Positions 4,600 to 61,443 of a stretch of 64,000 bases of DNA are shown here, in pieces. The stretch is from Tribonema minus (taxonomy: Eukaryota; Sar; Xanthophyceae; Tribonematales; Tribonemataceae): NCBI GenBank assembly GCA_017506865.1, contig JAFCMP010000093.1, positions 1 to 64,000 on the forward strand, given 5' to 3'. The first letter of the stretch is position 1; the number at the start of each line of letters is the position of its first letter. The notes beneath the pieces are model-generated. The model worked only from the letters and a program-made list of their open reading frames with translations. It searched no databases and had not been told where the DNA came from. The position numbers and the translations under genes are program-made.

Positions 4600-7500
4600 T
4601 CATTTGTACATGTACCGCAGTGCGCACGCCCTCATCCATTGAAAGGTGCAAAGGCTCGCGCTGAGGGACCAGGCCCACAGGCAGATGCAAGGCATGCCTA
4701 AGTGGCAGTCAGCGCCCATGTACGCAGTGACACAAACCTGAAGATCACAATGGTAGCATACATGCTGGCAGAACAACAGCAGTAGAGCACAACTGAAGCA
4801 AGCTTGTTTCTGGCACCACAGCAACTGGAAGCTCCAAACACCTCCAGTATATGTGTTGCATGATCACGCCAAGTACTATAACTTGTAAGATTGCAATACT
4901 GAGTCTCCACCTGCTGCCAGCACAAGCAACAGCGCTACGTCAGAGAGTGCAGGTTGCCGACACATCCACACCTTGTAGCCGTCAATCTTGGCCACCACGT
5001 TCAGCTCGAAGTCGTCCTTGAACCCGTAGCCATCTGCCAGCAGCGTCACCATGTACGTTACGGTGTAGCACGCCGCACGCACCAGGTTCGGCAGCAGCGG
5101 CTTCCCTGCCCTTTCGTTTCTGTCAAGCAGAGCCTGCATGTCTAGCGAGCACACCTCGCGGGCGCCTTCGCGGTACTGCGCCAGGGTCAGCCTCTCGCTG
5201 GGCAGATTCATCATGTCAAAGGCGCGCCGGAAGCCTGCGCGCAGCGGGGTGCAAGTGGTTTTTTGCTTAGTCACATGTGATGGTACTGCGCCAGGGTCAA
5301 CCTCTCGCTGGGCAGATTCATCATGTCAGAGGCGCGCTGCAAGCTTGCGCGCAGCAGGGCGTGAATGTAGTTTTGCGCTCAGCCACAAGTGCTGCTGGTA
5401 CTGCGCCAGGGTCAACCTCTCGCGGGGCAGATTCACCATGTCAACGGCGCGCTGGACGCATGCGCGCAGCGGAGGGTGCATGTAGTTTGCGCTCAGCCGC
5501 ATGCGGTACTGCGCCAAGGTAACCTCTCGCTGGGCAGAGTCATCATGTCAGAGGCGCGACGGACGCCTGCGCACATGGGGAGTGAGTGTCATTTTGCGCT
5601 CAGCCGCAAGCGCATCTTCCTGGTTGCACTCAATGATGTTGGACTGAGTCAGTCAGACTGACTGCGTGCTTGACTGGACAAGTTTTAATGTATTCGTGCT
5701 GCACGGTAAGCGAAGGACAACATGCATGCATGCAGCATGCAGTGGGTAGGTGCACATGCTTTGGGTGCCGGCACGGGCTTGGCATTACCTCTCCAGGCAA
5801 TCTCACAAGCTTGCTGGGCGCAGACTGTGAAGTGCAGGTGTGCGGCAAAATTGAACACGGCCGTCTCACCTGAGAAGGCGTAGAAAACTCGGTTGGCAGC
5901 GGCAGGCAGCTCAGGCTGGTAGATGCCGCCCATGGAGCACTCGCCGCTGCGCATAAGAGACATGACCAGCAGCGTGTGGTGATTGTGCTTTACCACTGAG
6001 CTAAAAAGCTTGAGCACACTCAGCAGGGCAGCCATGCCCTTCTGGGGTGTCTGATCACCACAAGCAGCAACATGATGTAGCCAAGCAGCATCAGAGGCAT
6101 GCGTGCACAGCAGCAAAGGGCAGCTGCAGAAGCAGCCACACTGTCATTGCTGCAGCACGTCAGACGAAGTTGCACTACAAAGTGCGGTTAACTTTGAACA
6201 ATTGAACAGTTGCATTATCGCCTCATGCACACACCTGAGCCCATGCGCGCTGGCGTCATATGCTTCAACTACTACAAATCTCAGCATGAAAACGTGATGC
6301 TTTGAATACTTACAGTGCAGACTGTACCTATTGTAACGCATGTAAAAGGCACTGTGGCACAATAATCCACCAGTGAGAACATGGTCCATCATACGTACTT
6401 ATTCGAGTTTTCCAAGTTTTGCCTTGTGTGTCAGATCACACCTCTTCAGACTGTAGACGTGGTTGGTCGTGCACACACGCTCGACATCGAGGTGCAATAT
6501 GTGTATTGGTTGCTGACTGTGAAAGTTCTGCAGAGCTAAACACCCGCAAATTTGGGAACAACAGCAGTGATAGCCGCTGGGGTTTAAAGCACAAGGGAGA
6601 CCAATGCAGCGCCTCATCATATTGGCGCTAAGCCTTGTTCCTTGGCAACATTGACATGATCATGAACGCAAGCTTGCCGCATCAAGGTATTGCTTGCTCA
6701 GCACACCACCACGACAAACTGACTGCATGTCAGCGCTCAAGATGACAACACATCATGATATGTAAGTCACTCGTACAGTGCGACCGCGTGCTAGCCTTCC
6801 TTGCCCACGGACACTCATCAGCCTTAGGCAATGCTAGCGGCAGCAAAGTTGAGAAGCCTTGCACAATGTCATGATGAGTGCCTGGAACGTATCTGTTGAT
6901 CGCCGCAACAACCGCGTCGGTCCACAGGTCCTGGCTATCGATCGCGCTAAGAGCAATTGTGTGAGGTGACAGCTCTTGAGCTAGCCTTGCCAACTGCACT
7001 GGATATATTGCATGCTGTTCACGACTGTAAGAGCTCTAATCAGCACATTAGAACGATTTGAAGACTGAAGAGGGAACAAGACTGGGCCCGCTCAACGACA
7101 GTCCCAACCATGATATCTGCTTGCTCAATAGCAGGAGCGGGAGCAGCTAAGAGACCGAGCACAAGTAAGATCAGAGCCGTACGTAAGCTGCGTGTTTCGA
7201 TGAGAGATCATGTCGGTTGCGTCAGGTGTTTAGCATTGCCGAGGTGCTACATACATTGCACACGATGCCCGCAAACAACTACTGCTGAACATCTCTGCAA
7301 GTGACACGGCACTGCAACAAGCACTTGCGTGTGCTATAAAACACAAGCATGTGTGGGCGCTCTCGGAAGCGACAAGACGGCTGCAAGACGCAACAGCACG
7401 CAAATGTAAACACAGGTGCAGGGACCTGTACGACTGCGGGCATTCCTATGGCCTCTAGTACCCAGCTTAACCAAGCTTGCAGATGCTGAAATGCAATGAG

Positions 7501-10500
7501 GTGGCTCTGAACAGACGTTCATGGCAAGGTACTACCAGCAGTTGTAGGCAGCTACGCAGTGGTCGTTACTTACTTGTAAGCATACTCGCACCAAGCATTG
7601 AGGTGTTTGTTGAGCAGCGGCAGTATGGCCTCGCGGCATGCGTCGAATCGTACGGACGCGTCCATGTCCTGGTGTGTCATTGCATACATCACCCCATCCG
7701 CTGCTGGGAATACGCCAGTCGCGCCGGCAGGTAAGCATGGTATGCTGATGTGCGGCAGACCTGAAGTTGAGGTGCGGTGGAGCGCATACATTGCATGGCG
7801 CATGGATAAGCGATGAGTATCTGGCTGCTTTGCCTTGTAATTCAGCAGCTGCAAGCGTAGAATTTAGAGGGCATGCACTAAGCCTTATCCTCTTTGGTTG
7901 ACAACACGTCACTTGCAGCACAAGTTTAGCGTACTCAACATGCGTTTACTGCTATGCACGCACATTGTGGAAGGCACATTCCAACCCGAGCTGAGCAACA
8001 GCACCTAAATACAGTCAAAGCCAAGCATTACGGGACTCTATTTCCTACATCGACACTAAGCCTCAATCCCCCCCTCCCCCCTCCCTACCCGATGTCCCTT
8101 GCCCAACTCTCATCAAGAGTGAGGTTTATGCGGTTGTGGGGGATGAGGGATGGCGCACATCAGGCCTTGTGCATGCAAGTTGTCGCGAATCTGTCCTGGC
8201 CTAACCTACCAGGCTGGTAGCCACTCACCCTCAACCTGCACATCTTGCCCTGTTCACAACCCTACCTGTAAGCTGCGGCATTTGTGAGATGCGGCGGGGT
8301 CCCGCATTCGCGCCCTTAGCCTCAACGCCGTACACTTCCAGTTGGCTGACCTTGACCCCAAAATCTTAAAAGTAGTCCCCAATCCCTGTCCGTCGGCCCT
8401 ACCACTGACCTGCCGGTACGGTGCTGAACTGTAGGCGACCGCAAAAAACTGATGTTGCATACTGCTATAGTAGAAGTCTAGACTGGCAACCCCTTAAGAA
8501 AAACCTTGCCTTGACCCCATCGCCCTAACTTTATGTTGCAACCTCTACGCTGAACTGTGGTATGCACAATTGCGGCAGGACCAAACGTGTCGGTATCCTC
8601 TGCGTTGGAGCCAACGCCATCGTCACCCAACCAGCGATGACCATACACTACATGATACCGTCACCCACCCCTCAGCTCACCCTGGCCTGCTGTGCCTGCA
8701 GAAGACCCTTAGCCCCATCTCTGCCCTGCGGAGTCTGCAGATCGGCCGACGGCTTTCGGAAGGGCTGCCTCTTTGTTACACTATCCGAGTCCCACCATGA
8801 TAATACCAGTTCGGCCCTCTGCTGACCTGTGGTGTTCGCAGTTGCGGCGGGACCAACAACGTCCGGGCCCTCCGCGTCCACGTCGTCGCCGTCATCCCCC
8901 GACCCTCGCAGGAACCGATTGCGGGTGCGGCGGTCAAGCGGGTGCTGCGCAAAAGGCACGCACACACCCGTGTCCTCCTCGCACATGCGCACTGCGTTGG
9001 GGGGGGGGGCGCCGGCGCGTAGGGAGCCCAGCGCCAGCATTGAGCGCTCGTGCGCGTGCAGGCCGTTGTACGCGTCGACGAGGGACTGGAGAAGGCGCAG
9101 TCGCATTGCGGCCTCCCCAAAGTAGAGGAAGGAGTGCACGTAGACGTTCCAGTGCTTCTGCGCACCGACCTGAGGGCGGGCACGTGTTCAAAGTAGGGCG
9201 AGATGCTGATCAGTCTTAGGGTGCAGAGCTCGCACATGCAGTCCTTGTTGTATCAACATGGCAGCTGTTTGATGGCAGCATACCACATGTGACTTTTGGT
9301 GCGTCTCGTGTCCGCTGCATGCTTTATCAGATTGCAGTTCTGAGCAGGCACAGCACACAAATAAGTTAGCTGAGGGCAGTCCCGGCTGCTTCCTCTCCTG
9401 CTCCTCCCGCTCGTCCCCCGCTCATTTGCGTGTATGCCATGCATGCCTCGCTGTTTCTGCTTGAAGTTTGTGCGCCAGACATTACCGGTGGGTGGCCCAA
9501 ATGACCCACTACCGTGTGTTGAATGGGAAGGTAAATGCCAATGGTATTAGTAGACGTGCTGTTTGGCTTCACGGTCAACATTGCCATTCGCGGGCTCTCT
9601 GGAGCCCAGACCAAAACAGGACAGACTCTCGGAAGGCATTACTAATCAGCTGCAATCGTGAGGACTAATAATGGGCAACAATGGGCAAAATTTACCCCCC
9701 TTATTCAGATTAATGTTTGCGATTTACTGTGAGTTTTAGCCGACAAGCACATCGTATAGGAATTGGTGGGTAGGCCCTTAACCACCCTTGCCCCCCAAAG
9801 CAGCAGCACACTATTATGCAACCACAATCAGCAGCATAACAGCGGCGCGGCATACAGTTTGGCCTTACCACACGCAGGAGTGGCATAATAGGCACTGCTG
9901 CATGCACGTCACTGCAACGAGGCGCATCGGAGCAGTACAGAAGCAATTGCTAAAATTATTAATAAAAGCAGTATGCGCTTGCGGTTCTTGGTATTTTTGC
10001 TGCAAGTGCAGCTATGCTGCGAGTTCCTAGCGGTAGTGTGCTCGGCAAGTGCGCCGTCGATAGTAGACGACGTATTGATGACCAGTACTATGACATCTGC
10101 GTCGCACGTGCAGTGCGTGTGCTGTAAGTGTCTTCAAGCGGACCGTTTTGTCATATGTATCTTACAGGTTTTGCACAGTTTGAAGTGCTGCAAGAGATCA
10201 CGCTGGCGACACGAGCAAGGCGCGTGCGTGCGCATGAAATGTTTGGCAGGATGTCTACCGGTGCTATTGTGTATGATGTGGACCGGATGTATCGCGTCAT
10301 ATAATCGTGTGCGTGTCGTGAGCCGCGTGCGACGATGGTCTAACGACTGGGAGCCCTTCGAGCAACTCAAATGCACCAAATGACGGCCACACGCCGCGCC
10401 GCGCGGCGCGGCGCGGCGAGCATGCAGTGGAGGGTGTCACACGGTGGCCATGACCCTAAAGCATAGTACCAGCGTGTTACATGCATGTGCCAGCGTGTGT

Positions 10501-12566
10501 GTGGTGTGTGAGCGCCGATGAGCAGTGGGGGGGGCGCAGATTTGCCCACCAATTCCAGATACGAGTAAGAGGATGTACTCCAGGTTGTTATATTGAAGTA
10601 CAAATTCCAGTTTTCAGGTCAACAACGGAAGGCGATGTGCCATGCCCCAAGCAACAGCAGCAGCAGCCGCATCACGAAAACTGCCTCACCTGCAGCTTGA
10701 ACAAATTGCTCATGATGTCCTGGTCGCTTCTGAAAAATGCGATCTGTGCAGAGGCGCCGCCCATGTCAAGCGCGCCGACAGTTTCATGTGAAACCGCAAG
10801 CCCGGCGCCCTCAGACTCTAGCAGCAGGTTGCCCCGCAAGAAGTTGATCCCTGAGCACAAGGCAGCAGTTTGCAGCAGCGGAGTCAAGTGGGGTTCAGTT
10901 GTTGCATCGTGCTCCAGAGACGGTGTAGGCATAGCATAATCGAGCAGCGCTTCAGCATCAACAGTGTTGGTCAAAGCGGCTGGGTTTGGAGGTACACTGC
11001 TGCAGCAGTAGGCCAGTACCGCACATGGCAGTGTGCCAGCTTTGGCTGATGGGCTTTGGCTGATGTGTTGTTCAGTCCTTGCTTGTGCGTTCTTGGTTGT
11101 TTTGCAAAACAACGACTGCCAGGTGGCCTCTGAGTCAAGCACTGGGCTGCTTACCTACATGTGTTCCTATAGCAACTCCAGCCTCAGGCTGCTTCCAGCA
11201 AATAAGGACAAGAATGACCAGTACTACACACACGTGCTTCATCACCTCAACTGCATACAGACATTCTCTGGCAGGCCGGCTGCAATTGGCTGAACGGCGC
11301 GCGCACCTGCCCACGCAAAGATCCCTTCCTCTTCCCCGGAAATGACTCGCGCAAAGTAGTCCTCGAAGTAAAACGGGCAGTTGGGGCCGTGCAGGTAGTC
11401 CCTGATGGCGGCCATGACAGCGCGTCGCTTGGCGGGCGGCAGCTGGCGCATGCCGGCTGTTGCGCCCAGCGCGATGGGCATCTTGTGCCAGTCCTCCTTG
11501 TGCTTCTTGAGCTGCTCCTTGGCAAAGTCGATCAGCACTTGGAGGCTTTCGCCAACGCCCTCAGGATCGTCTGCATTGTGCGGTGGGGGCGGGGAGGTGC
11601 GTATGAGTGGAAATTCAACAGCAGCAGCATCATAATGTGCAAGCGTCCAGTACACGCGGTCATGGCGATCTGTAGCAGCCCGGAGTTCTGTGCGTGCACA
11701 GAGTGCAAACGCTTTTATTAAATCAGCCATGAGTACCAGTCGCCTCCCCCAGAGGGAGGTGGGCTCGGGATGCAAAGATGGTTCGGCAGCTGCCCTGACT
11801 TTTGCTAGGGGATGTAAGCGGCGCTCAAAGCGTGATGCCATTAGTCCCTACGGACCACGCATAACCTCCTACTGCGGCATAAGCAACGCAAGCACGCAGA
11901 ATAAAGTTTAGCAAGAAGAAGAATGATAATGATGACTACTGGGAATTCCAAACACGACGTCGCTTTGTGAGCACTCGCGCTGCGCGCCTAGACAACTATG
12001 CTGACAACGACGCTGCTCTCAAGCAATAACATGCTGTCAATGCCGTTGCTCGCCGGCCACCGCACCAGATGACCGCGCAAGGGTCATAATAGCGAGCCAG
12101 AGCACCAACAGCGCAGCTCGGACCAGCAACACCGGCCAGGAAGTGTGCGTGTGCGGCTGACCAGCAGCACCAATTGTGGCACTGGGACCAGCGTCACAGC
12201 CCTGCTTTGCAGAACCTCTGAAGGGATCACTTCTATTCCTAAAGCAGGCTTAGATTTTGAGCCACCGTTTACCTACAACAGCACCAACTTGATAGTTGCG
12301 CAGGACGCACCGGCGAACGAAGAGATCCCAGGCCTCAGCCGAGCTGTCCAGCTGTTGTGGCTCAGGGGATGGCTCACTGATGGCGGCAATGTTTCAAAGA
12401 TCCTTTTCTTCCACCTGTACACGTGCAAGCGCGAACCACCGCTGCCTGCGTCGATGAGCAGGCCATGATTAATGTGCGTGGTGTCAAGGAGGGTGCTGGT
12501 GTGTGCTGCTGCGACCAGCAGCGGCAGCAGGCACCCCGTGAGCTGCACAAGCAGCCATGCAACCAT
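4600..12566 (-). CDS. GDA1/CD39-family nucleoside di/triphosphatase (apyrase)
   Basis: Hydrolyses nucleoside di- or triphosphates, probably in the secretory pathway or outside the cell, given the hydrophobic N-terminus (MVAWLLVQLTGCLLPLLVAA). Exons on the minus strand: 12566-12311, 11570-11307, 10850-10690, 9169-8827, 7760-7574, 5946-5870, 5234-4972; phases agree at every junction. A last exon at 4737-4600 is tentative. The apyrase conserved regions appear in order: IDAGSGGSRLHVYRW (ACR1), RPGISSFA (ACR2), ALGATAGMR (ACR3), ISGEEEGIFAWAGINF, GALDMGGASAQIAF (ACR4), then YVHSFLYFGE, IPCLPAG, CSMGGIYQPE and RAACYTVTYMVTLL near the C-terminus. About 519 codons precede the uncertain last exon, a normal length; the motifs resemble the Golgi/lysosomal ENTPD4/7 type more than cell-surface CD39. 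The only doubt is the extreme C-terminus. Confidence 0.9.
5171..5592 (-). repeat. Four tandem copies of the 5' edge of an apyrase exon
   Basis: The first ~65 bp of the apyrase exon that begins at 5234 (encoding RAFDMMNLPSERLTLAQY) recur upstream in the intron at about 5281-5369, 5397-5485 and 5505-5592, with a period of roughly 110 bp. Each copy still encodes a diverged version such as RAVDMVNLPRERLTLAQY. The acceptor AG is intact in the outermost copy and altered in the two middle ones. Confidence 0.88.
10391..10421. repeat. GC-only palindrome in an apyrase intron
   Basis: A run of pure G and C, reading CGCCGCGCCGCGCGGCGCGG and on, forms a near-perfect inverted repeat of about 24-28 bp between apyrase exons 3 and 4. 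It would fold into a very stable hairpin. No coding role is apparent. Confidence 0.6.
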
Positions 12567-12737
12567 TGGACTGATATCTCCTGACTCTAGAGATATCTCT
12601 CTTCACTGCGCGGCGGCTGCTGCTGCTCCTGCTCCTGCGCTGCCGCTGCGGTCGCTGCTGCCAAGAGCGATGTCCGGGTTTACATGCAACGACCCGAGCG
12701 TGTTCAGCTCAGCCTACCCTTACAGATAGCTCAGTGA

Positions 12738-13073
12738 TTGAGGCCGAGCGCTTTTTTTCAGCTGCATGTAAAGTTGAAGTTTGATTTGGATACACACCCG
12801 CTCAGGGTCGGTGTGCGGGGTAGAGGCGTCTCCGTGGCTACATGTGCAGGCATTGACAGTATACGACACGTATGCGTCCAAAGCACAGTCCATGCCGCTG
12901 CAGAGCAGGGTACATGGCTGATTGCTGAAAAGACAAGGGACGCGCTACGACAGTTCCTTCTCCAACTGCCGCGTGAGGTGGTGCGGTCCTTGCTCGACAC
13001 AGTCTCGGCACCAACCCTTTCTGACCAGCGAAAGCGCGTTGCAAGCCAAGCCACGACTATGCATCTTGCCTAG
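12738..13073 (+). other. Leader segment of array unit 1 (small open frame)
   Basis: An open frame of about 111 codons ends with FLLQLPREVVRSLLDTVSA and PTLSDQRKRV. A diverged version (YFFQDLPRVLRSALETLSA, then PTLSEQQKRA) is at 16892-17137. Decayed versions lie at about 21010-21120 and 24815-24930, always a few hundred bases before a Cys/His-repeat gene copy. It may be an upstream exon of that gene. No domain is recognised. Confidence 0.4.
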
Positions 13074-13168
13074 CCCTCCGACACTAACGAATTCAGTCAG
13101 GGAGTGATGTGCCTGCTTCTTGAAGAACTTCCGCAAGAGAAAGCCAAACTGTGACTGTGCTGTGCAGC

Positions 13169-16920: not shown

Positions 16921-17137
16921 CTATTCCCGAACGGCAACTCAGCGGACCACCCTTAAGTTAAACACCACGACACATCAGAGCGCTGTATATTTCTTTCAAG
17001 ACCTGCCGCGTGTGCTGCGGTCCGCGCTCGAGACACTCTCGGCACCAACCCTTTCTGAGCAGCAAAAGCGCGCTGTAGGCCAGGCCATGGCTCTACGTAC
17101 ATTGCGTGCTGGCTGCCCCTCCCTCCTGGTGTCTTGA
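16892..17137 (+). other. Leader segment of array unit 2 (small open frame)
   Basis: Homologue of the unit 1 leader (VYFFQDLPRVLRSALETLSA, then PTLSEQQKRAVGQ), open for about 81 codons and ending just before the copy 2 gene. Its function is unknown. The conserved spacing to the following gene is the main reason to list it. Confidence 0.4.
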
Positions 17138-17212
17138 ACGTCAAGTTTGGCGACGTGTTGTGAAGTAAGGAGAAAAAAAATGAGCAGCGCAGGAGCATGC
17201 ATGGTGGATATA

Positions 17213-28373: not shown

Positions 28374-31300
28374 TCACTTTTTTAGCACGCCATCCCAGCG
28401 CCTCTCATCTTCAACTGCGCACACCGGCGAGTACCAGTCGGGCAGCGCCTGTCGCCCAGAGACGAGCCTGCGCCACAGGAGACAACGACAGCCATATTGG
28501 GCGGGACAACTGTGATGTCTCTTTTTTGTGCAATAGCTTGGATGCCGTGGTTTCGCCAGGCAGCGTGTTGAAACCGACTTGTTGCTGCTGATGAGATACA
28601 ATTCTGCATTCAACTGCATACAGGCCTGACCTGTTCGTGATGAATGCCTCATCACCTCGTGATGCAGACGTGAACCATGAAACAAGCAGATATGTACAAA
28701 ATAATCAATTGCAAGCGCAACTTAATTCTTCACTTTACACAGCGGAATCATCCGCACACTTGGCCGACCTTAAGCTTGTGATGATGATGGAGAGACACTG
28801 GGCTTGCTAGGTTTGCGTTTAAATTGGGGGGTGGGGTTAGAACTACAAGCAGACAGCACAAGCAACCTGGCAGCTTGCTCACCATGCACAATTCGATGAA
28901 AACTTCAACTTCAACTACACGAAGGCAGTACATACTGCCAACTTACAGATACTGACTGACACTCAAAACCACTCTCAAGTCCACAAGACGAACCTGAACA
29001 CGATACAATTTGTGCAAACCCCAGAAGCATATTCAGGGTATGTATGCATGTGCGCAGAGTACCCGCACTTTAATCATTCTGCAATCAAACCACTCAAAGG
29101 ACTGACGTGATTCCCAAACTGAAACGACTGATTCACAAGCCTCAATTGGCAGCTCACCTGTAATTCATAAACACCTCTTCGTCTTGAAGGTCCGTGGTGG
29201 CCACCAGTACCATGCTCTCCATCATGACGGTGCTGTCAATCTTGCCGCCCCAGAACGTGGGCACAGCGCGATACTGATTGGGGACGTAGGGACGCAGCTC
29301 TGCGGGGTAGGTTGTGCGTGTGGTCGCTGCCGTGCTGCCCACTTCTGTGGGGTAATCGTACGCCACCTGTACAGACAGGGCGAGACGCGTTTGCTGAACG
29401 AAGCCACTGCAGTTACATAGGGCATGTCAGTGGTATATGCCTACCATGCACTGTTGCAATCATTATACCTACCACCCACTGTTGCAACTACTACTTCGGG
29501 CTTGCTGAGCATTGCCAATAGGGTTGCATACACAGAGCACCCGGTGATACCTGCCAACCATTGCTGGAAGTACCTGGAAGCTAGCTCACATCCCAATTTT
29601 AACTTTAAGGCTTCAGAGCGCACTTGCTCTGAGCTCTTGCTCTGAGCTCTCGTTTTTTTGCTAGCATGGTCACAGTGAGCACATCCAGGCAAAAGGCAGC
29701 CATGATCGAAACTGTAGTACATACTTCTAGCTCACAAGCGTTGAGCAATGCAATGACTACATTATACCCATACCTACCATGACACTCGCAGGGCAGCATC
29801 TAAAGCAAACCTCATCACAGCTGGGAATGCTGACGGCTATTGCTGTTGGCAGCATGCAGGCACATGCCACGCCCGGTGTCACATGCCATTGCTGTCACAT
29901 CGACAATGTGACATCGTACTGGACACCCTCCCATGTTGATACGGCAAAGCCTGGGGCACTCAACAACTCCGTACTTGGAGCACGTATATACTGCGCACGC
30001 GTGTTCTTACTGGCGTGACACCACTCTCCAAAGTAACGCTCACCTGCATGACATCAAGCTCTACGATCTTTTGAGTCGTTTTCATCAAGCAGCCTGCCCT
30101 TGGGGGAATGATTGACCTTAACCCTAATTCTAACCTGACCCTAACTCTAACCCTAATGTTAACCCTAGCCGCACTCTCAGGCATGGCATGCAATAGCGCA
30201 AAGATGCCCCCCATGCTCACCTGCATGACATTGGGCAGCCTGCCCTCAGGTGGGTGATTGGCCATGCTCGCAACGCCCAGAGGGTGCCAGTTGCACCCCT
30301 GCGTCTTCCTCCCGTCAATAATATAGTTGTCATAGCGCATGATGAGCTGCATGTTGTCGTCCGGAAACAGCTCCGCCTGGTACTCCGGCCTGCGCACATA
30401 TTGCGGCGCGTATACCAGCCCTGAGAACAGCCCAATCACAGAGCCCGTGGGCGCATACCCCTCCACCCACAGCCCCAGACCCGCCCCCTTGAGACGCGAC
30501 GGTTTCAGCGCGACCGAATACCCCAGGGTCGCCCTGAGCTCCCGCTGCAGCAGCGCCTTCATGGCCGCCCCCCCGCTCGTGCTCCACTGGTCCAGGTAGA
30601 CCCCAGCTGCGGACGCGATCGCGGCGCGCTTGGCCTCGTTTGCGTGCGCAGGGTCGATGGCATGCAACTGTGCACCCCCCCTGTGGACCTTATCTATGGC
30701 CTTTGCAATGTCGACTATCTGCGTATTGATGTCACCCTGGAGGCGAGCTTTGAGGGTGTGCAGGCTGAGCGCTGACACCTCGTTGAAGGTGGCCACCGCG
30801 TTGAAGTCGCGGCCCGCCTGCGGGGGCGCGGCCAGGGTTAGGGTTAGGGTTAGGCAGCGAACCGAGCCAACTCATGGGGTTAGGGTTGGGTTAGGCAGCG
30901 AACCGAGAGCTACCTCATTCCGCGGGTTTTAAAGCACAAATCGTGCGCACCTTGGAGATGATGATGATGTGATGCAGGGGTGCTGAGTACTGACACAGCA
31001 TTGTGCAGCGCCGCAACAATCAACGCGTGACTGGCTTGTGGGACCGTCTGCCACACGATCTGGAGGGCAAAGCAACAAAAGAAGGTACCTATACTTGAAA
31101 GATTACAGGGATGTTCCCAAGGAAAATCATCAAGAGGCGCGCTGCGTGAAGCATGTGTGCCGAGTCGCACTACGCACAGGCACTTTTTGAGACGTGCTTA
31201 TACAGCTGCCTGCCTGCATTGATGGCCAGGCGATGAAAACAAGGAGTCATATGTCGTCATAGCAAAAGTTATTCAGGAAGTGAGGACAGCACAAGTTATT

Positions 31301-33890: not shown

Positions 33891-35616
33891 AGTGCATATA
33901 AGTTCTAGTGATGCCCTTTGGCATCCGCGCCGTGAACTTTGGCTGGACAGCACACTGAGGTTTAGCCCTACCCCAACTTCAAGTACCTTGCGGTTGAGGT
34001 TTGGGGTCGACTGGCATTTGACATCAGACTTTGTACACTGTAGCAGGGTGTAAATCCGTGGCGTGGCACCAGGGGCTTATTTATATTTTGAGTGGATGGG
34101 CCCTGGACAGATTCTGAAGCGTTCCTTTTCAATTGCGGATCAGGACCCTCACTACTGGACTCGCAAATTCATGCCTTGTGCATGACACTCAGGAGCCTTT
34201 TATTTCTCTCAGCGCGTGCGCTTTCACTTTTCGGCAGCGCAGCCACATGCTGACATTACAAAAGCATGCTACAGCTGACGTCACAGCAGGTGTGTTGCAA
34301 TGTGTTCTTTGTTGACTAGGAGTCTTTACATGAACAAGTCTCTTGACACTTACCCTTGGTGCGAAGTGCTGAGCACTGCTCACCCCTACTCGTTTTGAGC
34401 TCCATTTGAAAGTACTGCCTGTACTGATGGTGTCTCTTGCTCATCAGCCAAGTGTCCGAGTGACTGTGTCAGCTGCATGCATGCAATGGCTCTCAACAAT
34501 GTCAACTGAGCATGCACAGTATTGGCCTTTCCATGCATGTTAACAGGAGCACAGACGGCTGCATGATGCAACAGTGTCAAGTTGCTAAAACTACAACAGG
34601 GTACTGCCGTTCTCAATGTCGACAAATACTGCCAAATTGTCACAAAACTGGAAACACACGAGGCCCAGTGAGGCCATGTGTGACCATGCTAGCAGCATGT
34701 TTCTGCTGAAGGAGCTTGTGTACGTGCATGTGGCTACATCCTTTCACACGTGGACCAAGTAACATTGCAGCAAGAAAGAAGCACGCGATCCTGCCACAAC
34801 GCCTTGGTACCACAGCTGCCTTATGATGGGGTGAACCCCTGAACTACCCGAGCCTGCAATCACAAACAGTAAATCGAACCCCAATTCTGGAGCAGGCCGA
34901 ATGCCCTGCCCTCACTCGCTGCCGCTGCCACAAGTGCCCCCTCTCAAGGGGGACATCAGTTGCTCAGCACCTATCGCGCCTCGCGAACAGCGGCGCGCAG
35001 CGCGCTGCTTCAGTGCTCAGCAACAGGTCAACGGCGGCAACAGGTCAACGGCGGCGGGCGGGACGCGCGTGCGCGCGGTGCACTCATGCGTGATGTGCGT
35101 GCGCAAGAGCAGCAGGGGCACACCCACTCGGTCTATGTGGAAGCGCCCAAAGCGCACGCACGCACACGCCTGCTGCTGCAAAGCGCTGCACTGCGCACAG
35201 CCTAGAGACACCGACGGGCGCTACACACGCACACGCCTGCTGCTGCAAAGCACTGCAATGCGCGCAGCCTAGAGTCACCGACAGGTGCCGTAGCCTCGGT
35301 GCAGGCACGGCATCCATGTGAGCGCCCCCCCTCACCCCCCCCCCCCCCCCCCCCCCAATCCTTCCTCCCCTATATGCCCCCCAATCCCCACCCCGACCCC
35401 AATCACACACACAACGATCTCTGCGGAGGCGGCTAGCCAAGGGATGTGCGCGCATGGCGCATATGTGGCGCACTGCCGCTGGTCCGCCTTCCAGCCTCTG
35501 TTATGCGCTGCCTCCAGCGCCGCAAGTGCGCTGGCGCTGCTGCCGCCGCCGCCGCCGCCGCCGCACAAAGCCAGAGCTGCTGCGCAGTCGCGACGGTACA
35601 GCCAAGTGCTGCTAAG
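33891..35616. other. Convergent intergenic region between the DOMON and kinase genes
   Basis: No gene recognised. A tandem duplication of about 67 bp (CACACGCCTGCTGCTGCAAA, then GCGCAGCCTAGAG.CACCGAC) covers 35157-35290. A C-only tract of about 23 bases sits at 35335-35357. A TGTAA word at 34048, about 160 bp after the DOMON stop, could be a polyadenylation signal if this organism uses the green-algal type. Confidence 0.5.
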
Positions 35617-45010
<9,394 letters not shown>

Positions 45011-45983
45011 CTTGGGGCGGTGAGTACGTGGCGGTGGTGAGCAAGCAGAGGGCAAGGTGCACAGAGACAGGAAGGAAGGGCCTGAAGCTGGTGGCGTAGA
45101 GACGCAGCAAGCCACTGCAACACAGCAACGGAATCAAGGCTCAGAGCGCTTGGCCTTGGGGAGTATTGCACAATATTGATAAATACAACCTTGCCTTTTG
45201 ATGGCGGCAACGTGTGTTCAGACGAGGGCATCGTGATTGTACGCACCTGTGCGGATGCGTGATGCGGGAACCTCCGCAAGTATGCGCTGCTGCACGTGCG
45301 CTTCGAGCTTCCGGCTGTAGTGCAGCTCTCTGTGCAGGCCGAGACGACAGTAGCAGGTTACTGTTACATGTGAGCAGAAGAAAAAAAAGCTATGACATGG
45401 GACTCCTCTCCAGCATAGGGACATGAGCCATCGCAGCTGATCTGCAGGCAGTGTTCGTGGTGCGAGCTACCTTTTCAGCAGCATAGAAGCGCAAGCAGAT
45501 GCCAGCCAATTGGCCTGCTGCCTGCTCACGCAACCAAGCAAGAGGCGACGATGTACCTGAAACTAGGCCTGGACTCGATCGGGGGGGGGGCTTCGGCGGT
45601 GCGGCCAGACCTTGATCTCGACCCTCTGCCCCGCAGAGAGCAGCTGAGGTTACCAATGGTTGCCCACGCTGCAGAGAAGCTCTAGTGCTAGTCCAGGGTC
45701 ACGAGGGTTTCTGCAGCGCCCTCTCTCTGCAGCCTGGGAGCAAAGGCCGTCCCTACTCGCTGCGGGCATGCATGAGCCCCACTGCGGTGCCCGTGGCCTT
45801 CAGCCTCCGAATGCGCTATCGCTCTCCTCGCCTGGGCTCGGCTCGCCACCTTGCTGGCGCTAGCTAAAAACACACACATAGGAGGGAGTTTCGGCCACCC
45901 TAAGTCTAGGGTTTGCAGTCGGCCACCCTAAGTCTAGGGTTTGACAGAGTCACCCCCCCTTCTTTTGACGAGTTTTGATCTGC
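45011..45983. other. Kinase 5' region and flank of the CTG tract
   Basis: The kinase start codon and first exon should lie here, but no frame could be joined with confidence. A 25-bp unit (CGGCCACCCTAAGTCTAGGG) is duplicated at 45891-45939 just before the triplet tract. Confidence 0.4.
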
Positions 45984-47747
<1,764 letters not shown>

Positions 47748-47764
47748 GCTGTTTTTGAAGTACC

Positions 47765-47902: not shown

Positions 47903-47908
47903 AAGTAC

Positions 47909-48251: not shown

Positions 48252-48416
48252 TACTTTAACTTCACATCTAACTTTATGTTGAACTTGCCCTCTTTTATTC
48301 TGCCGCGGCGCGAGGGCTGTGCGCAAGAAGACCCAAACTTCTGGGCGCCAGTTTGAAGTTTTTTCAAACGTCAACGAAGCTCGGAGCGGGGCACTTGGGC
48401 TCCAGTTGGAGCTCAG

Positions 48417-53700: not shown

Positions 53701-53829
53701 ACATTTACAGTGTTGTTGGTCGACTTCACTGCATCATTTACCGCCTGCTGCACATTGTCTGGCAGGTCGTCCTTGCGGCGCAACATAAATCTTTGCTTTC
53801 GAAATAGCGGCAAGGTTGCGGCCGTGCTC

Positions 53830-54237
53830 ACGAGGCGTGACAGATGAATCCTGAGGTGATTGCCACCACACACTGGCAGAACTTGCAGTCCCATTTGCTG
53901 CAGTTAGCGCTGGTGACGCTGTCGGTACAAAGCCCCTCCTCTTGCGAGGCGCCATGCACTTCAACACTGCGCCACAAAAAACATGTGGCTTTGCCCTTAA
54001 CCCTAGGCGAAAAACCTCAGCCCTGCTTGTGAACTTCAACAACAACACACCTTAACCCTAAATCCAGCCGGTGATACCGCACGGTAACAGGATTCCAAGT
54101 ATTACCATATACCTGCGTTTGTAGCACTCGAAACAGCCGGTATGGACCACACTGATGAGTGGTGCTTCGGCTCCCTCCGAAAAGTGCTTCACATCACTCG
54201 CCAGAAACGGCACACTACCTCTGGGGCCCCATAGTTG
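53830..54237 (-). CDS. Possible exons downstream of the Fanzor remnant, unidentified
   Basis: A minus-strand exon 54237-54113 with a good acceptor (CTTTGCAG) and donor (GTATAT) encodes QLWGPRGSVPFLASDVKHFS then PLISVVHTGCFECYKRR. A further piece near 53950-53860 contains NCSKWDCKFCQCVV in one frame. CFEC and CKFC suggest a Cys-rich, perhaps zinc-binding, protein. The 5' half of the first exon is also present in the repeat at 48.2 kb, so this exon is at least partly inside a mobile or duplicated segment. Whether it belongs to the same element as the nuclease remnant upstream is open. Confidence 0.3.
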
Positions 54238-54530
54238 CTGCAAAGAGGGGCTCTTGACCATAGCTCAGCGACTCAACCCCCCCCGCATGGCAAAATGTCA
54301 CATCGACATGCCTGATTGATTTTGTGTGCTGCTGCCACTGCTGCTACGACACTGCCCCCTCCCACCTACCATGTGGATAATGCTGCATGGCAGTCAGCCA
54401 GCCCCCCCCCCCCCCCCCCCCCCCCCCTCCTCCTCCCTACCCCCACCCCTCAAGGCCTGGCTGACCCCCTGCCCCATCATCATGTACATGCATGTGCATA
54501 TGTCATGCATACATATGCCTTGCAGGAACT
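54194..54530 (-). repeat. Dispersed repeat, copy B
   Basis: Reverse complement of 47909-48251, with a C-only tract of about 23 bases at 54404-54426 where copy A has an interrupted G run. On the minus strand it is preceded by a short (CTG)8 tract (54537-54562), mirroring the giant CTG tract beside copy A, and lies about 60 bp after the stop of the nuclease-like frame. It lacks the retroposon found in copy A. Confidence 0.88.
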
Positions 54531-55830
54531 TCAACAACAGCAGCAGCAGCAGCAGCAGCAGCGCAGCAAGGCGCTAGCCGCCCCCAGGATGTCAGATATG
54601 CGCCTCTGAGGCCTGCCTGCCCATACCTGGGCCCCGGCAAAACTCGGGAGGACGCACCCCATACAGCATCTTCACCACACGCCGCACTTTGTTGATGTTG
54701 GCGGCGCCAGATTGGTCGCGGTCGACAGCAACCACGTCACACCGCGACTCCTCAGGGACATCAAGCCTGGAGTTTACGCAACAGAATACCCTAGATCCTA
54801 GGGCACTGCGGCGCAGGGGTGCCCGATCTTGGGAGCAGGTGAGTGATGTCCGTAATTCAAGGACCACCGTTGCCAGGCAGGCAAGGTGCCGTATCAGGCG
54901 CTTGCGGGGGATGGGGCCGCCCGGCGGGAGCCGCTGCCAGACTCGGCCTTCCCGAAGAAGACCACCCGCCGCACATTGGGGTCGGTGGCCCGAGGATATC
55001 ACGGGCCACGCGCGCCACCACCCGCACCCTGGTGCGGTAGGAGTCGAACGTGCGTATGCGGCGTGTGTGGCTGAGGTAGTGGCGCGCGCGCACGGACAAC
55101 GTCTGATACGTCACTGTGGCGTAGTTGGCGGCACCTTCTCCGGGCCTGCGCAGGGAGGTCTGTGACGTGAAAAGCTTCGCCGCCGCGTACAGCTGCGGGT
55201 CCCGCTTCCGGCACATCTTGAAGTAGCGGCGCGAGTTCTTGCGCTTCGTAGCTGGACAGCAAGGGAAGGGGCGGAGGGGCAGGGGGGCGGAAGCAAGGGG
55301 CGGGGGGGAGGGGGGGGGATGGATGAGCACCGCTTCATGATTACTAATCTGGAGTAATAGCACACTGCCAAGCTATTGTAAGTCATATACAGGTGTCATG
55401 CAAAATATCACTTCATGTTGCATGAGTCCGACGAGCTGCATCAGTGCATGCCACACTGTAGCTGAGAGTGCGCTCTGTCCTCCCCGAGATGCATGAATGA
55501 CATGTCACGCAGGTGTTGGCGCTGTTTGTGCAGAGGGCGTTTATGGTGCCCCTTGCCTTGAACTTGTAACTGCGCTGCGTACTATCATGATAATGTAAAC
55601 ATGGTCGCTGTGAATGCAGTGTGCCTGTGACCGTAGCTCACTGCAATTACCCAAGTTTCTGTAAGAGCGCAAACCCGATGCTATGCATCAGCCAGGACTG
55701 CAGACCCCCTCAAACAAGTGTCAAGTCAGTGCTCAACTTGAACTTCAGATGCACCCAGGCAACGGCTACCTGAGAGGCAACCTTAGCACCTGCGCTGCTG
55801 CATGACCCAAGCCCCGTGGAACAGAAGAGT

Positions 55831-56024
55831 ACGGCCGCAGACATGAAGGGCACGGTGGCGGATACGAAGACGTCAGACTTCAAGTGAGTGCTGACTGATT
55901 CAAAACTCATCCCAGAAGAGGTTGTGACGGAAGAAGAGGTTGTGATGAGTTTTGAATCAGTCAGCACTCACATGAAGTCTGACGTCTTCGTATCCGCCAC
56001 CGTGCCCTTCATGTTAGCGGCCGT
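55831..56024. repeat. Inverted duplication around the RuvC-I exon end and donor
   Basis: Arms of about 81 bp (55831-55911 and 55944-56024) are reverse complements with only about three mismatches, separated by 32 bp. The right arm holds the true exon end and donor of the nuclease-like gene on the minus strand. The left arm carries the same exon end and a GTGAGTGCTG donor on the plus strand. Confidence 0.92.
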
Positions 56025-56195
56025 CAAGTCCGGGCTGACGCGCGCTCTAACGCTCACGGCAATGGACTTCTGCCTGGGGTCGACGCCGATGGCCTCGGTG
56101 GCGGGACCATGCCGACCATAGGCTCTGCAGAGAGCAAAGCGTGCAACCATCTGTTGGTGCAAATCATCATCAGCATTAACAGACGTGCGTGAGTG

Positions 56196-56248
56196 CCAAC
56201 CCTACCCCTAACCCTAACCCTCAACCTAAACCTAACCTTAACCCTGAT
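56196..56248. repeat. Interstitial telomere-like repeat
   Basis: Degenerate CCCTAA units (CCCTACCCCTAACCCTAACC and variants) lie about 75 bp before the RuvC-I exon on the minus strand, inside its upstream intron. Confidence 0.85.
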
Positions 56249-56905
56249 TGCAACCCAACCCATCACCATGCATTACCATGCATGCAGCAGCGGGTTGCTA
56301 CATTGATCACTGGAGTCATGTGTTCAAGCAACCAGCACAATGCCTGCCCGCATGTACTCTCAATCAGGTAACGGCAGCAATGGCCCACAAATGCAGATGC
56401 CACTGCAACTGTTCCAACATGCAAGCGTGTTGAAGCCGCAGCTAGCGTCCACTGCGCCCACAGGCGAGTCACTGCAGCCACGGCATGCACGAAGTGTGCA
56501 GCATGGAGCTGCTGCTGCTTGAAACCCGTGCGTGATTGCATGAAGCGACCCAACCAATCACACACGTGCTTGCCTCTTGAAGATTGAGGCCATGCACTCA
56601 CCCTCCTGCCTGCAGGTCACGCTGGTCTTTGAGCACCCAGTCAGGCAGCTGATGGACGCCGGAAACAGTCTTTGCACGGACGTCCTTCTCCGTCACGATG
56701 CGGTACCAACGCTTGCTCGAGAGTTTTGTGAACTGCAGACGAAATGTGGAAGCTAGAATTCCCTACTTAGTATTTTGGATCCGAGCTCGGCAGAGCTTGT
56801 TTGCTGGTACGGAGCGGCAGCAAACGGAGGGAGACATAGGCAGACGGCCATTGATTCTGGAAGCAGGAAGCGTACTTTGGTTCGTGGTTGCCTTACGTAC
56901 CGACC

Positions 56906-59900
56906 ATGGCAGCAAGGTGGGTACCATTCTACTGCTACTTTGTTGATAGCAGCAAGGATGCTGACGAGCATACCGATTGCTTCGTGCAGCCGGGCCTCCG
57001 CTTATCGCAATTCGGTTCCTGTGATCAGCCGCTTATGTTTTCAACACGGTTCAGCAGGTGGCACATCAGAAAGTATCCACAGTCTGCGACTGCACCAAGT
57101 TGCCCATCCCACGAAGCCACCGTATTCGCTGTTGCATAAACCTGATACCTCTGTGAAGGTAGTAGTTTAGTGCGAAGCACAGTCCCACGAGTAGCAGCAG
57201 CTGCAGGTGTTCTCAGGAGCCAAAACGTGTACTACAGTAGCAGCAGCAGTTCCGCATTCTCATGGTCAACGCTTGTGATGTCCTCCACCTTTGCTTTGTG
57301 CTGCAGCTATGACCGCGCTATCACAGTCTTCAGTCCAGATGGCCATCTCTTTCAGGTATGTGCTTAGGTATGTGCTTCAAGCTGCAATGTGATGTGCGGA
57401 ATCTGGCGCTGTGCTCTATGGCATTCAAGCACGCAGCTGTTGCAAATTCACCTTGTGTCGCATACGCTCGCCACTCGTGATTTACATTTACTGCATCAGG
57501 TTTTGCTAACAGATCAGTGCATCACACAGAGCCTGCACCCTTCATGTATCATGTCGCCACAGTCCACCGTGCGAGTTTTTGTGTTGCTACCACTCGACCA
57601 AAACGGAATGAGCCCAGAACTTCAACACCAGGCACTACCGACATGCAGTGTGGCATGTTGTTTGTGTGAGTGTGTATGTGGGGGGAGGGGAATGTGTATG
57701 CAATTAGGGTTTGTATACATCGTACAGGGGTAGGTGTCATAACCATACGGGATACAATGTATGCGCTATATCGGGCGAAACTACCGTAAATCACGGGGTA
57801 TAAGATACCCGTTCCTTAACAACGCCAGCTTTTTGGGCCTCTAAGATACGGGTTTCTTATACGGCGTATAAGAAAGGGAGTATCTTATACAGCAAACCTA
57901 GTATCTTACGTACACAACTGTCAACATGCTATAAGAAACAGGTATATTATACGGCGTATGCGCGCGTGCATGCGTATGCGTCACCAATGGTGTTGGGGTC
58001 TTGAAGTTGAGAGCAGTCGGAGGAGAGAGGTAGTACGGCTGAACAAAGAATGCCGCCGGTGGTAGTGCAGCTGCTTTAGCCGGTTTAGCAGCAGCAGCAG
58101 CAGCAGCAGCGCCACCAGCGATGGTGAATCAGATGACCGTACCAGCACCAGAGCCTGCTGCCGAGCGCAAGCGAGGACCTGCCCAGCTCATGCACTGCTT
58201 GCTGCATGCCTGTCGTTGGTGCTTTGCTACAGTTTGAAAGTTGCCTTGCTTGCTGCACAAGGTACGGGATTTCTTATACCGTCGCGTAAGGAACCCCCTT
58301 TCTTAACAGCAAGGATTCCTTATGCCGCGTATAAGAAAGGGCGTTCCTTATACAGCAAACCTAGTATCTTACATACATGCCTGTCCAAATGTTATAAGAA
58401 ACGGGTATCTTATACGCCGTATAAGATACCCGTTTCTTATACAGAGGCACTGCCTTATACCCCGTGATTTACGGTAGGCATGCACAAGGCCTGCTGAGCC
58501 GTGCCCCACTCCAGATGGCGGCGCGCGTGTTGCAGCGGCCATGCGCATCACCAGCCCCCCCATTGGCACCACATCTCGCCCTGGCGCTCCCGCCAGCCCC
58601 CTGGTGCAGCCCCCCCTCCCCATTCCGCAGCTCATCAGCATGCAAACGCGCCCTCCACTGCGCTGTGCGCCGCTTAGGTGGAGTACGCGATAGAGGCGGT
58701 CAAGCGCGGCAGCAGCGTGGTGGGCGTGCGCGCGGCAGACATGCTCGTGGTCGGCGTGGAGCGTCGCGCCACCGCCAAACTTCAAGACCCGCGCACCATC
58801 CGCAAGATCGTCAAGGTGGACGCGCACCTGACGCTGGCGTTTGCGGGACTCACCGCGGACGCGCGCGTGCTCATTGACAAGGCGCGCCTCGAGGCGCAGA
58901 GCTACCGCCTCACGTGCGAGGACGCGCCGTCACTTGGTGAGCGCTGCTGCCGCCGCCGCCGCTGCTGCTGCCGCTGCTGCTGCTGCTGCCGTTGCTGCGT
59001 GGCCGCTGCCTGAGCGCTGCTGCCTGAGCGTTGCTCCGTAGAAAGCGCCCTGAGTGCTGCTGCAGCATGAATATTCCTGAGCGCTGCTGCGTGGACAGTA
59101 ACCGAGCGCTGCTGCTGCGCAGAAAGTGCCTGAGCGGTGGTGCTACATGGACAACACCTGAGGGCGCTGCTGTTTAGAGTGCACTCGTCAGCTCGTGCGC
59201 AGCTTGCAGCACTGCCGTCAAGGTGCTTGACGATGTGCACTGCTTTTGGAGCGTGTGATGTCAGGCATGCTGTGTGTGCAGTTTCCGCCTCTTCCCACGC
59301 CGTGCAGCAACCTGAGGGTGTTTTGTTTACCATTGGGCATCAAAGTATTGAGTGAGGTCACCGCCATGGCATAGGTGCCGCAATCCTTTCTGGCTATCCC
59401 CCTTATGTGCTGCTACGCTCTTTACTTGCAGAGTGCACGGCGCTGATGACTGACGCCGCTGCCGCAATCGTGTTCTTCTGTCCTGTGCTGTCTGCGCGCA
59501 GAGTACATGGCGCGGTTCATAGCGCGCACGCAGCAAAAGTACACGCAGCGTGGAGGCATGCGCCCCTTTGGTGTTAGCTGCATGCTGGCGGGCTTTGGCA
59601 CGGATGGCCAACCTCAGGTGCGTCACGTGGAGTTTTTCACTGTCAAATTGATGTGAGAGGCTTTTAACACACGCTTAGTCAGCTTCATTCCTGTGATGTT
59701 TGCGCTCTGTTTGGAATGTGGACCACCACACGCTATGTACGAGAATGATGGCGGTGCCAGTGCTCGAGGTGCAAACACTGCCTACTTGACAGGTCCATTT
59801 GCCTGTTGCACATATTGGAGCGGTGCTCATGCACTGCGGCATGCATCTAACTGATACTCCCCAGTACAAGTGTGAAAACTGCATGCAAGAACAGGTCCAA

Positions 59901-61443
59901 CATGGGTCTCAAGCGCTTGCAGGACTGATGGCCCCCTGGCAAAAATAGAAGTCGCCTGTCTGGGTGTAGCATGCCTGTGGGGTATGTATGTATATGCATG
60001 TGATGGCAGCAGACGGCATGCACCTCGAGGAGCGTTTGCTCGCAAGAAGTTCAATCCAAAGTTCAACTCCTGACACTTCTCACTCGTGCTGCTGTGACCC
60101 GCACACGGCCCGCACCTCTCGACAGCAAGTACCGTAGCAACCAAGACTGAGGCCCGTGCGCATCAGTCACACGCGCTGAGCGCCTAACCCTAACCCTAAC
60201 CCTACCTTTAACCCTGACCCTAACCCTTCATCGCCCTCTTGAACTCTGTTGGCGCGCCGCGCACTTGCTGTGCACTGCGCCACCAGCTCTACCAGACTGA
60301 CCCCGCTGGAACGCACAGCGCGTGGAAGGCCAATGCCATTGGCGGGAAGAGCTCAAAGAACATGCGCGAGTTTCTGGAAAAGAACTATCCCACGGAAGGC
60401 GGCTTGGACGAAGCCGCAGCCGTCAAGCTGTGCATCAAGACGCTGCTGGAGGTGGTTGACTCGGGTGCCAAGAACATGGAAATCTGCCTGGTGAGTGGCG
60501 GTTGTCGCCTCTGAGCACTGCTGTTCAAGCGCTCTTGCACAGTGTTTATTTTTTTGAGACGTGGGCAGTAAGGGCCCCCCGGTGTACTTGACATTTTGGA
60601 GTGTCCGTGGATTTTGAGGACAGGTCAGACAGTTTTTTTTGTGTCCATCGATGCCCGGACTGACCAGACTTGTTGCTGTGGGTGCTGCATTCCCGCGCAA
60701 CTGCGCTCATAAGTGGGCATCGCACGTTTACAGGCTCATTTGTTCCTACAAGGACTGCAGCTTTAACTATTGACTTCTGATGCGGCCTCGCCCTGCCGCA
60801 ATAACGATTTGCACCGACCACTTGCCTTAGGCGCATGTGGGACTTGCTGCGCAAGCTTCAGGCGGTCATGCCGTGAGCTTGTTCTGTGCCGCAGTCTTGA
60901 GTGTGCGGGCACAGTTGCGTCTGCCGCCGAAAACCTCAGTGCGCCAGAGTTGCAAAGCTACTCGAAGTAACTCGAGGTGCACCACTGGAATGTCTGCAAG
61001 CCCTGATGACGGAGGTAATATGTGCTGCCGCACTTGTTGGTGTTGTTGCCCTAGATCCGCTGTGACACGCCCGTGGCGGCAATCCCCGCTACTGACATGG
61101 ATACTCAAGATACACCTTTGAACTGTATGCACCGCACTGATGATGGGGTCCACATGGTGCTTCCGCCCTTCTTGTGCTCCGCCTTAGATTCGCCGCGACA
61201 CGCCTGTGGAGACAATGTCCGTTTTTGACATGGGTACTCAAGATGCACTATTGAACTGTACTTCTACGCAACGCACTGATGATATGCTGCTGCGCTTGTT
61301 GGTGTGCTATGCCCCAGATCCGTCGCGACACACCTGTGGAGACAATGTCCGACACCGACATGGCAGCGGTGGTGGCGCAGATAGAGGCAGAGGCGGAGGA
61401 GGCTAAGAAGGCCAGCGCGGGCAGTTCCATGGAGACTTCCTAG
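56906..61443 (+). CDS. PSMA7: 20S proteasome subunit alpha-4 (PSMA7/PAD1 type)
   Basis: Six exons: 56906-56916, 57307-57355, 58678-58936, 59502-59617, 60287-60490 and 61318-61443. Phases agree throughout; product 254 aa against about 250 in the family. The first exon is only 11 bp (ATG GCA GCA AG), giving [20 protein letters not shown], which contains the alpha-ring gate motif ([15 protein letters not shown]). Then [71 protein letters not shown] and [19 protein letters not shown] follow, all diagnostic. The C-terminus is acidic and Lys-rich ([14 protein letters not shown]), typical of this subunit. It forms part of the outer ring of the 20S core. The tiny exon 1 rests on phase and context; the remainder is firm. 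Introns carry a TIR element, exon-edge copies and telomere-like repeats. Confidence 0.95.
57781..58477. mobile_element. TIR transposon (697 bp, non-autonomous) in proteasome intron 2
   Basis: Perfect 24-bp terminal inverted repeats begin CTACCGTAAATCACGGGGTA (57781-57804) and are mirrored at 58454-58477. If the target duplication is TA (57782-57783 and 58475-58476) the ends start CCGTAAATCA, as in many pogo/Tc1-like miniature elements; this assignment is from memory. Subterminal blocks repeat in both halves: TATACAGCAAACCTAGTATC at about 57888 and 58350, and several CTTATAC.GCGTATAAG palindromes. There is no transposase frame. Confidence 0.88.
59010..59175 (+). repeat. ~45-bp tandem repeats derived from the exon 3 donor region
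   Basis: About five units contain CCTGAGCGCTGCTG or a close variant, after the exon 3 donor whose sequence is GGTGAGCGCTGCTG (58936 on). A CTGCTG/CCGCCG run lies between. The unit has lost the GT of the donor. Confidence 0.6.
59428..59517 (+). repeat. Decoy copy of the proteasome exon 4 acceptor edge
   Basis: TTGCAGAGTGCACGGCGC at about 59428-59445 resembles the true acceptor and exon start GCGCAGAGTACATGGCGCGG (59496-59515). The acceptor AG is kept. The copy ends after about 20 bp. Confidence 0.5.
60183..60230. repeat. Interstitial telomere-like repeat in proteasome intron 4
   Basis: CCTAACCCTAACCCTAACCC followed by degenerate units, about 55 bp before the acceptor of exon 5. Confidence 0.9.
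61037..61375 (+). repeat. Three copies of the acceptor and 5' edge of the last proteasome exon
   Basis: The last exon begins at 61318 (CCCCAG|ATCCGTCGCGACACACC). Upstream copies start at about 61053 (CCCTAG|ATCCGCTGTGACACGCC) and 61187 (CCTTAG|ATTCGCCGCGACACGCC). All three keep an AG. The second still encodes [11 protein letters not shown] in the same frame before diverging. The repeated unit, about 130 bp, also contains ..TACTCAAGAT.CAC..TTGAACTGTA and CGCACTGATGAT, and so extends into intron sequence. Confidence 0.9.

Follow-up and report, generated by a model that had tools for sequence, protein, structure and literature searches.

Partial copies of exon edges in the introns of Tribonema minus genes and their probable origin in tandem duplications across splice borders

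The first 64,000 nucleotides of contig 93 of the xanthophyte Tribonema minus (contig JAFCMP010000093.1, forward strand, assembly GCA_017506865.1), referred to here as the window, contain four genes in which copies of exon edges, together with the splice site, lie in the adjoining intron. The genome comprises 158 Mb in 554 contigs and carries 92 chlorophyll-binding domain matches; a telomere-type repeat opens the window at positions 5-599. The GSK3 gene (35700-43576, minus strand) was modelled with 10 exons and 9 introns, its ends not being placed, and the spliced model aligned without gaps to human GSK3-beta over 313 residues across all splice junctions (E 2.8e-155), which supports the nine introns. 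The proteasome subunit alpha type 7/8 gene (57307-61443, plus strand), whose best matches are the alpha type 8 and type 7 chains, has 5 modelled exons and 4 introns, with the start codon not placed. An apyrase (GDA1/CD39-like) gene (3574-11667, minus strand) was modelled with 8 exons and 7 introns, in frame with an acceptor at 5234, and a SET-like gene (29158-30817, minus strand) was modelled by eye as two exons (30817-30221 and 29366-29158) enclosing one complete intron. The latter two names are those of the initial annotation and are presumed from sequence motifs. A search of the genome with SET did not place the window among the 80 matches listed, and domain scans of 20 open frames of the window found no domain.

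In GSK3, extra copies of the exon end together with the donor come after four of the nine donors, all on the minus strand. After exon 4 (exon end 40840; region 40263-40881), donor-side copies lie at approximately 40743-40648 and, in a longer form, at 40485-40263, with a unit of about 135 bases, a border-spanning score of 84 at offset 135 and GT in both aligned copies. After exon 5 (exon end 39679; 39505-39693) there is one donor-side copy 143 bases downstream, with GT intact and a score of 37; after exon 8 (exon end 37093; 37008-37120) there are two, about 40 and 80 bases downstream, with GT intact (the first judged by eye) and a score of 41 at offset 40; and after exon 9 (exon end 36174; 36048-36231) a copy at 36115-36048, about 117 bases downstream, also keeps its GT and scores 63. 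One dinucleotide shuffle of 35001-44000 yielded no spanning repeat scoring at least 30 anywhere. Between the two exon 4 copies lies an 84-base stretch (40559-40642) that is 96% identical to contig 530:199034-199116 and is probably a small insertion.

At the apyrase acceptor (exon start 5234; 5172-5613, minus strand), three acceptor-side copies upstream form part of an array of about four units of about 110 bases; Tandem Repeats Finder (TRF) counted 3.9 copies, the spanning score was 350, and the array was also found by self-alignment. The same gene also has a copy on the donor side, 272 bases downstream of the exon end at 8827 (8544-8856, minus strand), with TT in place of GT. In the SET-like gene, a short donor-side copy with intact GT (approximately 30054-30038) follows the exon end at 30221 (30038-30231, minus strand) and is weak on its own, with a score of 34. 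Finally, the last-exon acceptor of the proteasome gene (exon start 61318; 60970-61363, plus strand) is preceded by two acceptor-side copies with a unit of about 130 bases, AG in both (by eye) and a score of 115. Thus, the exon-edge copies described in the initial annotation are present in all four genes by self-alignment, spanning scores and sequence. Its assignment of sides holds for the kinase and SET-like genes (donor) and for the proteasome gene (acceptor), but not for apyrase, which was described as acceptor-only and also has the donor copy after 8827.

Two further sites in the proteasome gene were considered. The donor at 58936 was scored as copy-bearing, but is CTG-rich and was lost once simple sequence was masked. 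At the first donor, a 12-base tandem duplication at 57356-57378 (GTATGTGCTTAG, partly repeated) represents a very small case, below the counting threshold.

The same pattern was found at seven other loci. All five of the proteasome genes fetched from outside the window (L043-L047) carry exon-edge copies; L043 and L044 had been chosen for overlapping domain matches, and L045-L047 without such a sign. By eye, six units make up a donor array in L043, where the repeats extend 635 bases into a 938-base intron. One border in L044 has four acceptor copies, all with AG; in L045, about five acceptor copies accompany one border and arrays accompany three others. Six more loci (L009-L012, L041 and L042) had been fetched for other reasons; among these, an aurora-like kinase gene (L041) shows six copies after one donor, a SET gene (L011) shows copies after two donors, and L010 is ambiguous. 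The main counts were based on 33 modelled introns with 66 borders in 9 genes, and all 33 of the introns used, from the window and L043-L047, read GT..AG. L023-L039, which are 17 of the 20 stretches obtained from eight collinear pairs and four single regions, are nearly intronless and were left out of all counts.

The copies are direct and local. A direct copy in its own intron was found for 21 of the 66 borders, and an inverted one for none, and the copies adjoin the same border from which they derive. When border segments were compared with the window and 20 loci, five weak matches appeared beyond the own intron: one joins two kinase genes, two are reciprocal views of a match between a GSK3 and an L044 donor, one is the match of a proteasome donor in L009, and one, in L045, is in inverted orientation and overlaps the border it belongs to. 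A whole-genome search with the GSK3 region (40 of 684 candidates scored) returned, outside the region itself, a dispersed element and the one 84-base stretch. Direct, local copies of this kind are the mark to be expected of local tandem duplication, and not of transposition or retroposition. The duplicated units measure 40-272 bases (median 126) and include 11-87 bases of exon; since both lengths vary, the copies do not correspond to a fixed target-site duplication. The units hold existing intron as well as the exon edge, and some copies are set off by spacers that are tens of bases long. In each of the 28 copies compared, the exon part is shorter than the modelled exon, so that each copy is partial and includes one border.

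We used the divergence of the copies as a clock. With a constrained genuine edge and a freely changing copy, the mismatch rate expected at the first two codon positions is half that of the intron part, where both copies drift, and position 3 should approach the full rate. In 40 copies at 30 borders, mismatches were counted at 45 of 456 first, 42 of 471 second and 97 of 468 third codon positions, and at 366 of 1896 positions of the intron part, corresponding to 9.4% for positions 1 and 2 together, 20.7% for position 3 and 19.3% for the intron part. The ratio of the intron value to that of positions 1 and 2 is 2.06 (bootstrap by border, 1.52-2.76), close to the 2 expected when one copy is constrained and the other free; it is 2.13 without L043 and L044 (30 copies) and 2.59 in L045-L047, L041 and L011 alone (21 copies). 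The splice dinucleotide is intact in 31 of the 40 copies versus a background of 64.9% (P 0.10), and in 24 of 30 without L043 and L044 (P 0.12). This slight excess may come from alignments forced across the site; selection is not demonstrated by it, nor is slight selection excluded. The copies thus look like dead by-products of tandem duplication and not like hidden exons under coding selection. The tolerated decoy splice sites proposed earlier are supported by these data, in that the copies drift like unconstrained DNA beside a constrained genuine edge, with dinucleotides not significantly above background. Whole-exon duplications were not seen where rough hand arithmetic predicted about two, a difference too weak to use.

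We then compared borders with the background of tandem repeats by counting families of direct repeats. A per-point test in the window gave no border excess (17% of interior points and 8 of 40 borders covered), because the arrays themselves occupy the interior, and families were counted instead. The family table was curated by hand: four families classed as 'other' were moved to the border group because they touch a border, and one apyrase family found by TRF alone was added, while the interior group lost one dispersed element, one element-like proteasome-intron family, one telomere-type family and, in L044, one family adjacent to a donor. The 33 introns contain 22 families at a border and 10 in the interior before curation, or 7 without the dispersed, element-like and telomere-type families. 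This corresponds to a border fraction of 0.76 (0.69 uncurated), 0.67 border families per intron, and 7 interior families in 29.2 kb (0.24/kb). The control covers 45 kb, of which 18 kb are parts of the window free of modelled genes and 27 kb flank a dispersed element; it has 14 families (0.31/kb), as compared to 1.03/kb for introns with 60 bases on each side; the values for L041 and L042 are 0.70/kb and 0.30/kb. Arrays with at least two extra copies were found in 12 of the 22 border families and in none of 7 interior families by hand count (P 0.02), and in 13 of 22 and 4 of 10 by the automatic counter.

Outside L043 and L044, 16 border families were counted at 58 borders versus 1.8 expected, or 3.7 expected if border families are doubly detectable (P 1.7e-6). 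The same 16 exceed the 6.2 expected from the upper bound of the background (P 6.9e-4), and L045-L047 alone have 8 border families at 16 borders versus 0.5-1.0 expected. With only families whose intron part measures at least 31 bases, 9 remain versus 1.8 (P 1.3e-4), or 3.7 with doubled detectability (P 0.013). Across ten comparisons the excess ranged from 2.4- to 15.8-fold, and from 3.7- to 13.3-fold when L041 and L042 were added to the control. A null based on intron length gave P 1.1e-9 for all families. After correction of the length for visible duplicated DNA the value was 1.6e-6, rising to 0.0019 with doubled detectability and to 0.011 when L043 and L044 were also removed. A border excess over the tandem-repeat background is thus likely for the genes sampled, although it does not withstand the harshest correction. 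The general process of intron growth suggested in the initial annotation gains support from these counts, since 22 families at 66 borders, in unrelated loci too, lie above background in most comparisons.

We consider it probable that short tandem duplications crossing exon-intron borders leave decoy exon edges in the introns, that the border excess stems from a gene- or border-associated rate of duplication or from introns that were formerly short, and that the decoys are ignored through exon definition. A short tandem duplication of 40-272 bases would strike across one border. The message would stay intact because the genuine site retains the full exon and splicing removes the extra edge as part of the intron, and the event could therefore persist. 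Each event would add about 126 bases, and repeated events would build arrays in which as many as about six decoy edges lie in a longer intron. Drift would wipe out the intron part of a copy first, leaving the exon edges recognisable. Their excess at borders would reflect a duplication rate tied to genes or borders, or introns that were short when struck. With exons that are mostly short and introns of 377-1627 bases, an edge without a partner splice site would presumably not be recognised as an exon. Border-crossing duplication may be an important route of intron growth in this genome. More tentatively, and leaning somewhat against it, we put forward that splice borders are duplication hot spots: a process acting at splice sites in transcription or repair would raise duplication several, perhaps five to ten times relative to other non-coding DNA, copied sites would become new hot spots, and with the resulting decoy arrays, splice-site duplication would be a main engine of intron lengthening.

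Several points weigh against our interpretation. The sample, 33 introns from 9 genes, is small, and the pattern was itself the reason for choosing the window. The control is unannotated and was cut into windows of 0.75-1 kb, with the loss of some families, and border copies are easier to detect because their exon side changes slowly. Under the harshest correction, which combines an intron part of at least 31 bases, doubled detectability and the upper bound of the background, 9 families stand against 6.2 expected (1.5-fold, P 0.17). The corrected length null with doubled detectability gives P 0.064 for the window alone and P 0.081 for L045-L047 alone. L009, L012 and L042 have no exon-edge copies near the hit exon, and that the decoys are never spliced is presumed from their neutral change.

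To weigh other explanations, introns were simulated under tandem duplication, with events altering the message purged, and scored with the same family counter. Ordinary uniform duplication at constant intron length, with border copies that are merely easy to see beside exons, is unlikely. The interior rate of 0.24/kb is indeed near the control rate, indicating that a generic duplication process exists, and the detection bias is real, several copies aligning over only 3-12 intron bases; however, such simulations gave border fractions between 0.31 and 0.35, and between 0.14 and 0.34 border families per intron, versus 0.69-0.76 and 0.67 observed. A reading that comes closer, although on balance it seems somewhat improbable, is that tandem duplication is rapid throughout genes and the introns have recently grown from short ancestors of about 150-250 bases, so that borders need no special property: where the unit is about as long as the intron, inclusion of a border is almost unavoidable. 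Growth runs gave border fractions of 0.52 from a starting length of 400 bases, 0.69 and 0.78 from 250, 0.93 from 150 and 0.97 from 100, with frequent multi-copy arrays in the runs from 250 and 150 bases, and the observed 0.76 lies among these values. Nevertheless, three of the growth runs imply 1.5-1.9 families/kb in non-genic DNA versus the 0.31/kb seen, unless duplication is confined to genes, and borders are over-represented even after the length correction, with the exception of the two small subsets mentioned above. A low uniform rate combined with border-focused events gave border fractions of 0.66-0.84 and 0.34-0.41 families/kb in non-genic DNA. Two readings thus survive simulation, namely border-focused duplication, and gene-confined duplication with introns grown from short ones.

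That the copies are functional, as alternative or mutually exclusive partial exons or as decoy sites kept for splicing regulation or message decay, we regard as very doubtful: the intact GT or AG in 31 of 40 copies, and in all six after the donor of the aurora-like kinase gene, would fit such a role, but retention is not significant and alignments obliged to cross the site favour a match there, while the mismatch rate at positions 1 and 2 is half that of the intron part, the value expected with only one constrained copy, and no copy among the 28 has an exon part as long as the modelled exon. An error of assembly, to which arrays of near-repeats are prone, is scarcely credible, since the copies are about 19% divergent at unconstrained sites; in addition, one GSK3 array is interrupted by the 84-base stretch, which is known elsewhere in the genome. 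Under the Rogers model, an intron is born when an exonic AGGT segment is duplicated in tandem, and therefore consists of duplicated exon. As worked out here, this model expects a copy of the upstream exon end by the acceptor and of the downstream exon start by the donor, and the arrangement observed is the opposite, with donor-type copies after the donor, acceptor-type copies before the acceptor, and units that include existing intron. This makes such an origin highly improbable, even though tandem duplication is a mechanism shared with the model (PMC3443670).

Our reading of border-crossing duplication has partial parallels in known systems. Tandemly duplicated and mutually exclusive exons likewise put a further exon-like stretch into an intron, next to the exon it derives from; the copies described here, unlike these, are partial, include one border and lack coding constraint. 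Introner elements account for bulk intron gain in many genes, including those of algae, through a sequence common to the loci that is inserted as new introns, whereas border segments here match their own intron, apart from the five weak matches. Minisatellite arrays also have units, tens to a few hundred bases long, that follow one another head to tail and diverge between copies, but they are not known to be tied to splice borders; in contrast, 22 of the 32 families counted here touch one.

Tandem duplication of AGGT segments is an accepted route of intron gain (PMC3443670). The events proposed here resemble it in being short tandem duplications with splice motifs, tolerated since splicing discards the extra DNA; they differ in that they enlarge introns already present, with the copies as bystanders, whereas in that model an exonic AGGT is duplicated and an intron is made. 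In the potato RdRp gene, a single border-crossing duplication made a new intron that is used (Ma, Lan and Niu 2016, PMC4974935). Here, many events have affected both donors and acceptors, leaving apparently unused copies inside an existing intron, often as arrays. In the sources covered by a literature search, to the extent that they were accessible, we recognised no report of arrays of unused border copies at this density. The earlier statement that no named system matches needs to be narrowed: border-crossing tandem duplication is known in kind from potato, and it is the density for which no counterpart was recognised in the sources covered.

These observations touch on the questions of how introns lengthen and how the spliceosome picks the true site over near-identical copies a hundred bases away. 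Natural duplications of splice sites in essential genes, dated by their own divergence, would allow exon definition, the cost of decoys and a tie between duplication and splicing to be tested directly. If general in the lineage, such a process would allow introns to grow without the need for transposons.

Other repeats were noted in the window. The GSK3 intron sequence at 37565-38118 is a dispersed element of about 554 bases whose ends, by eye, form inverted repeats. About 40 matches (some partial) at 74-94% identity are listed genome-wide, and the element looks like a non-autonomous DNA transposon. The first proteasome intron contains palindrome-rich repeats of the CTTATACG type at 57850-58422, which were set aside as element-like by appearance. 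Short interstitial telomere-type repeats occur at 56198-56245 and 60183-60227, the latter in a proteasome intron, and similar ones were seen in L044, L046 and L047. A nearly perfect CTG repeat, 591 units long, occupies 45980-47751. Between 12966 and 27000, related units about 4 kb apart (69-74% identity) contain internal 54-base repeats that translate like HGRQR..CKDCGG, and the block looks like tandemly arranged repeats or mobile genes.

Elsewhere in the genome, the L023-L039 stretches (contigs 90, 179, 144, 223 and 278) are gene-dense and include kinase and SET frames. Contigs 90 and 179 are collinear, as are contigs 144, 223 and 278, with main aligned blocks about 89-98% identical, and these stretches look like endogenous giant-virus regions. 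On contig 223, several proteasome-domain matches in a repeating order (32962-65868) suggest a tandem cluster of proteasome genes.

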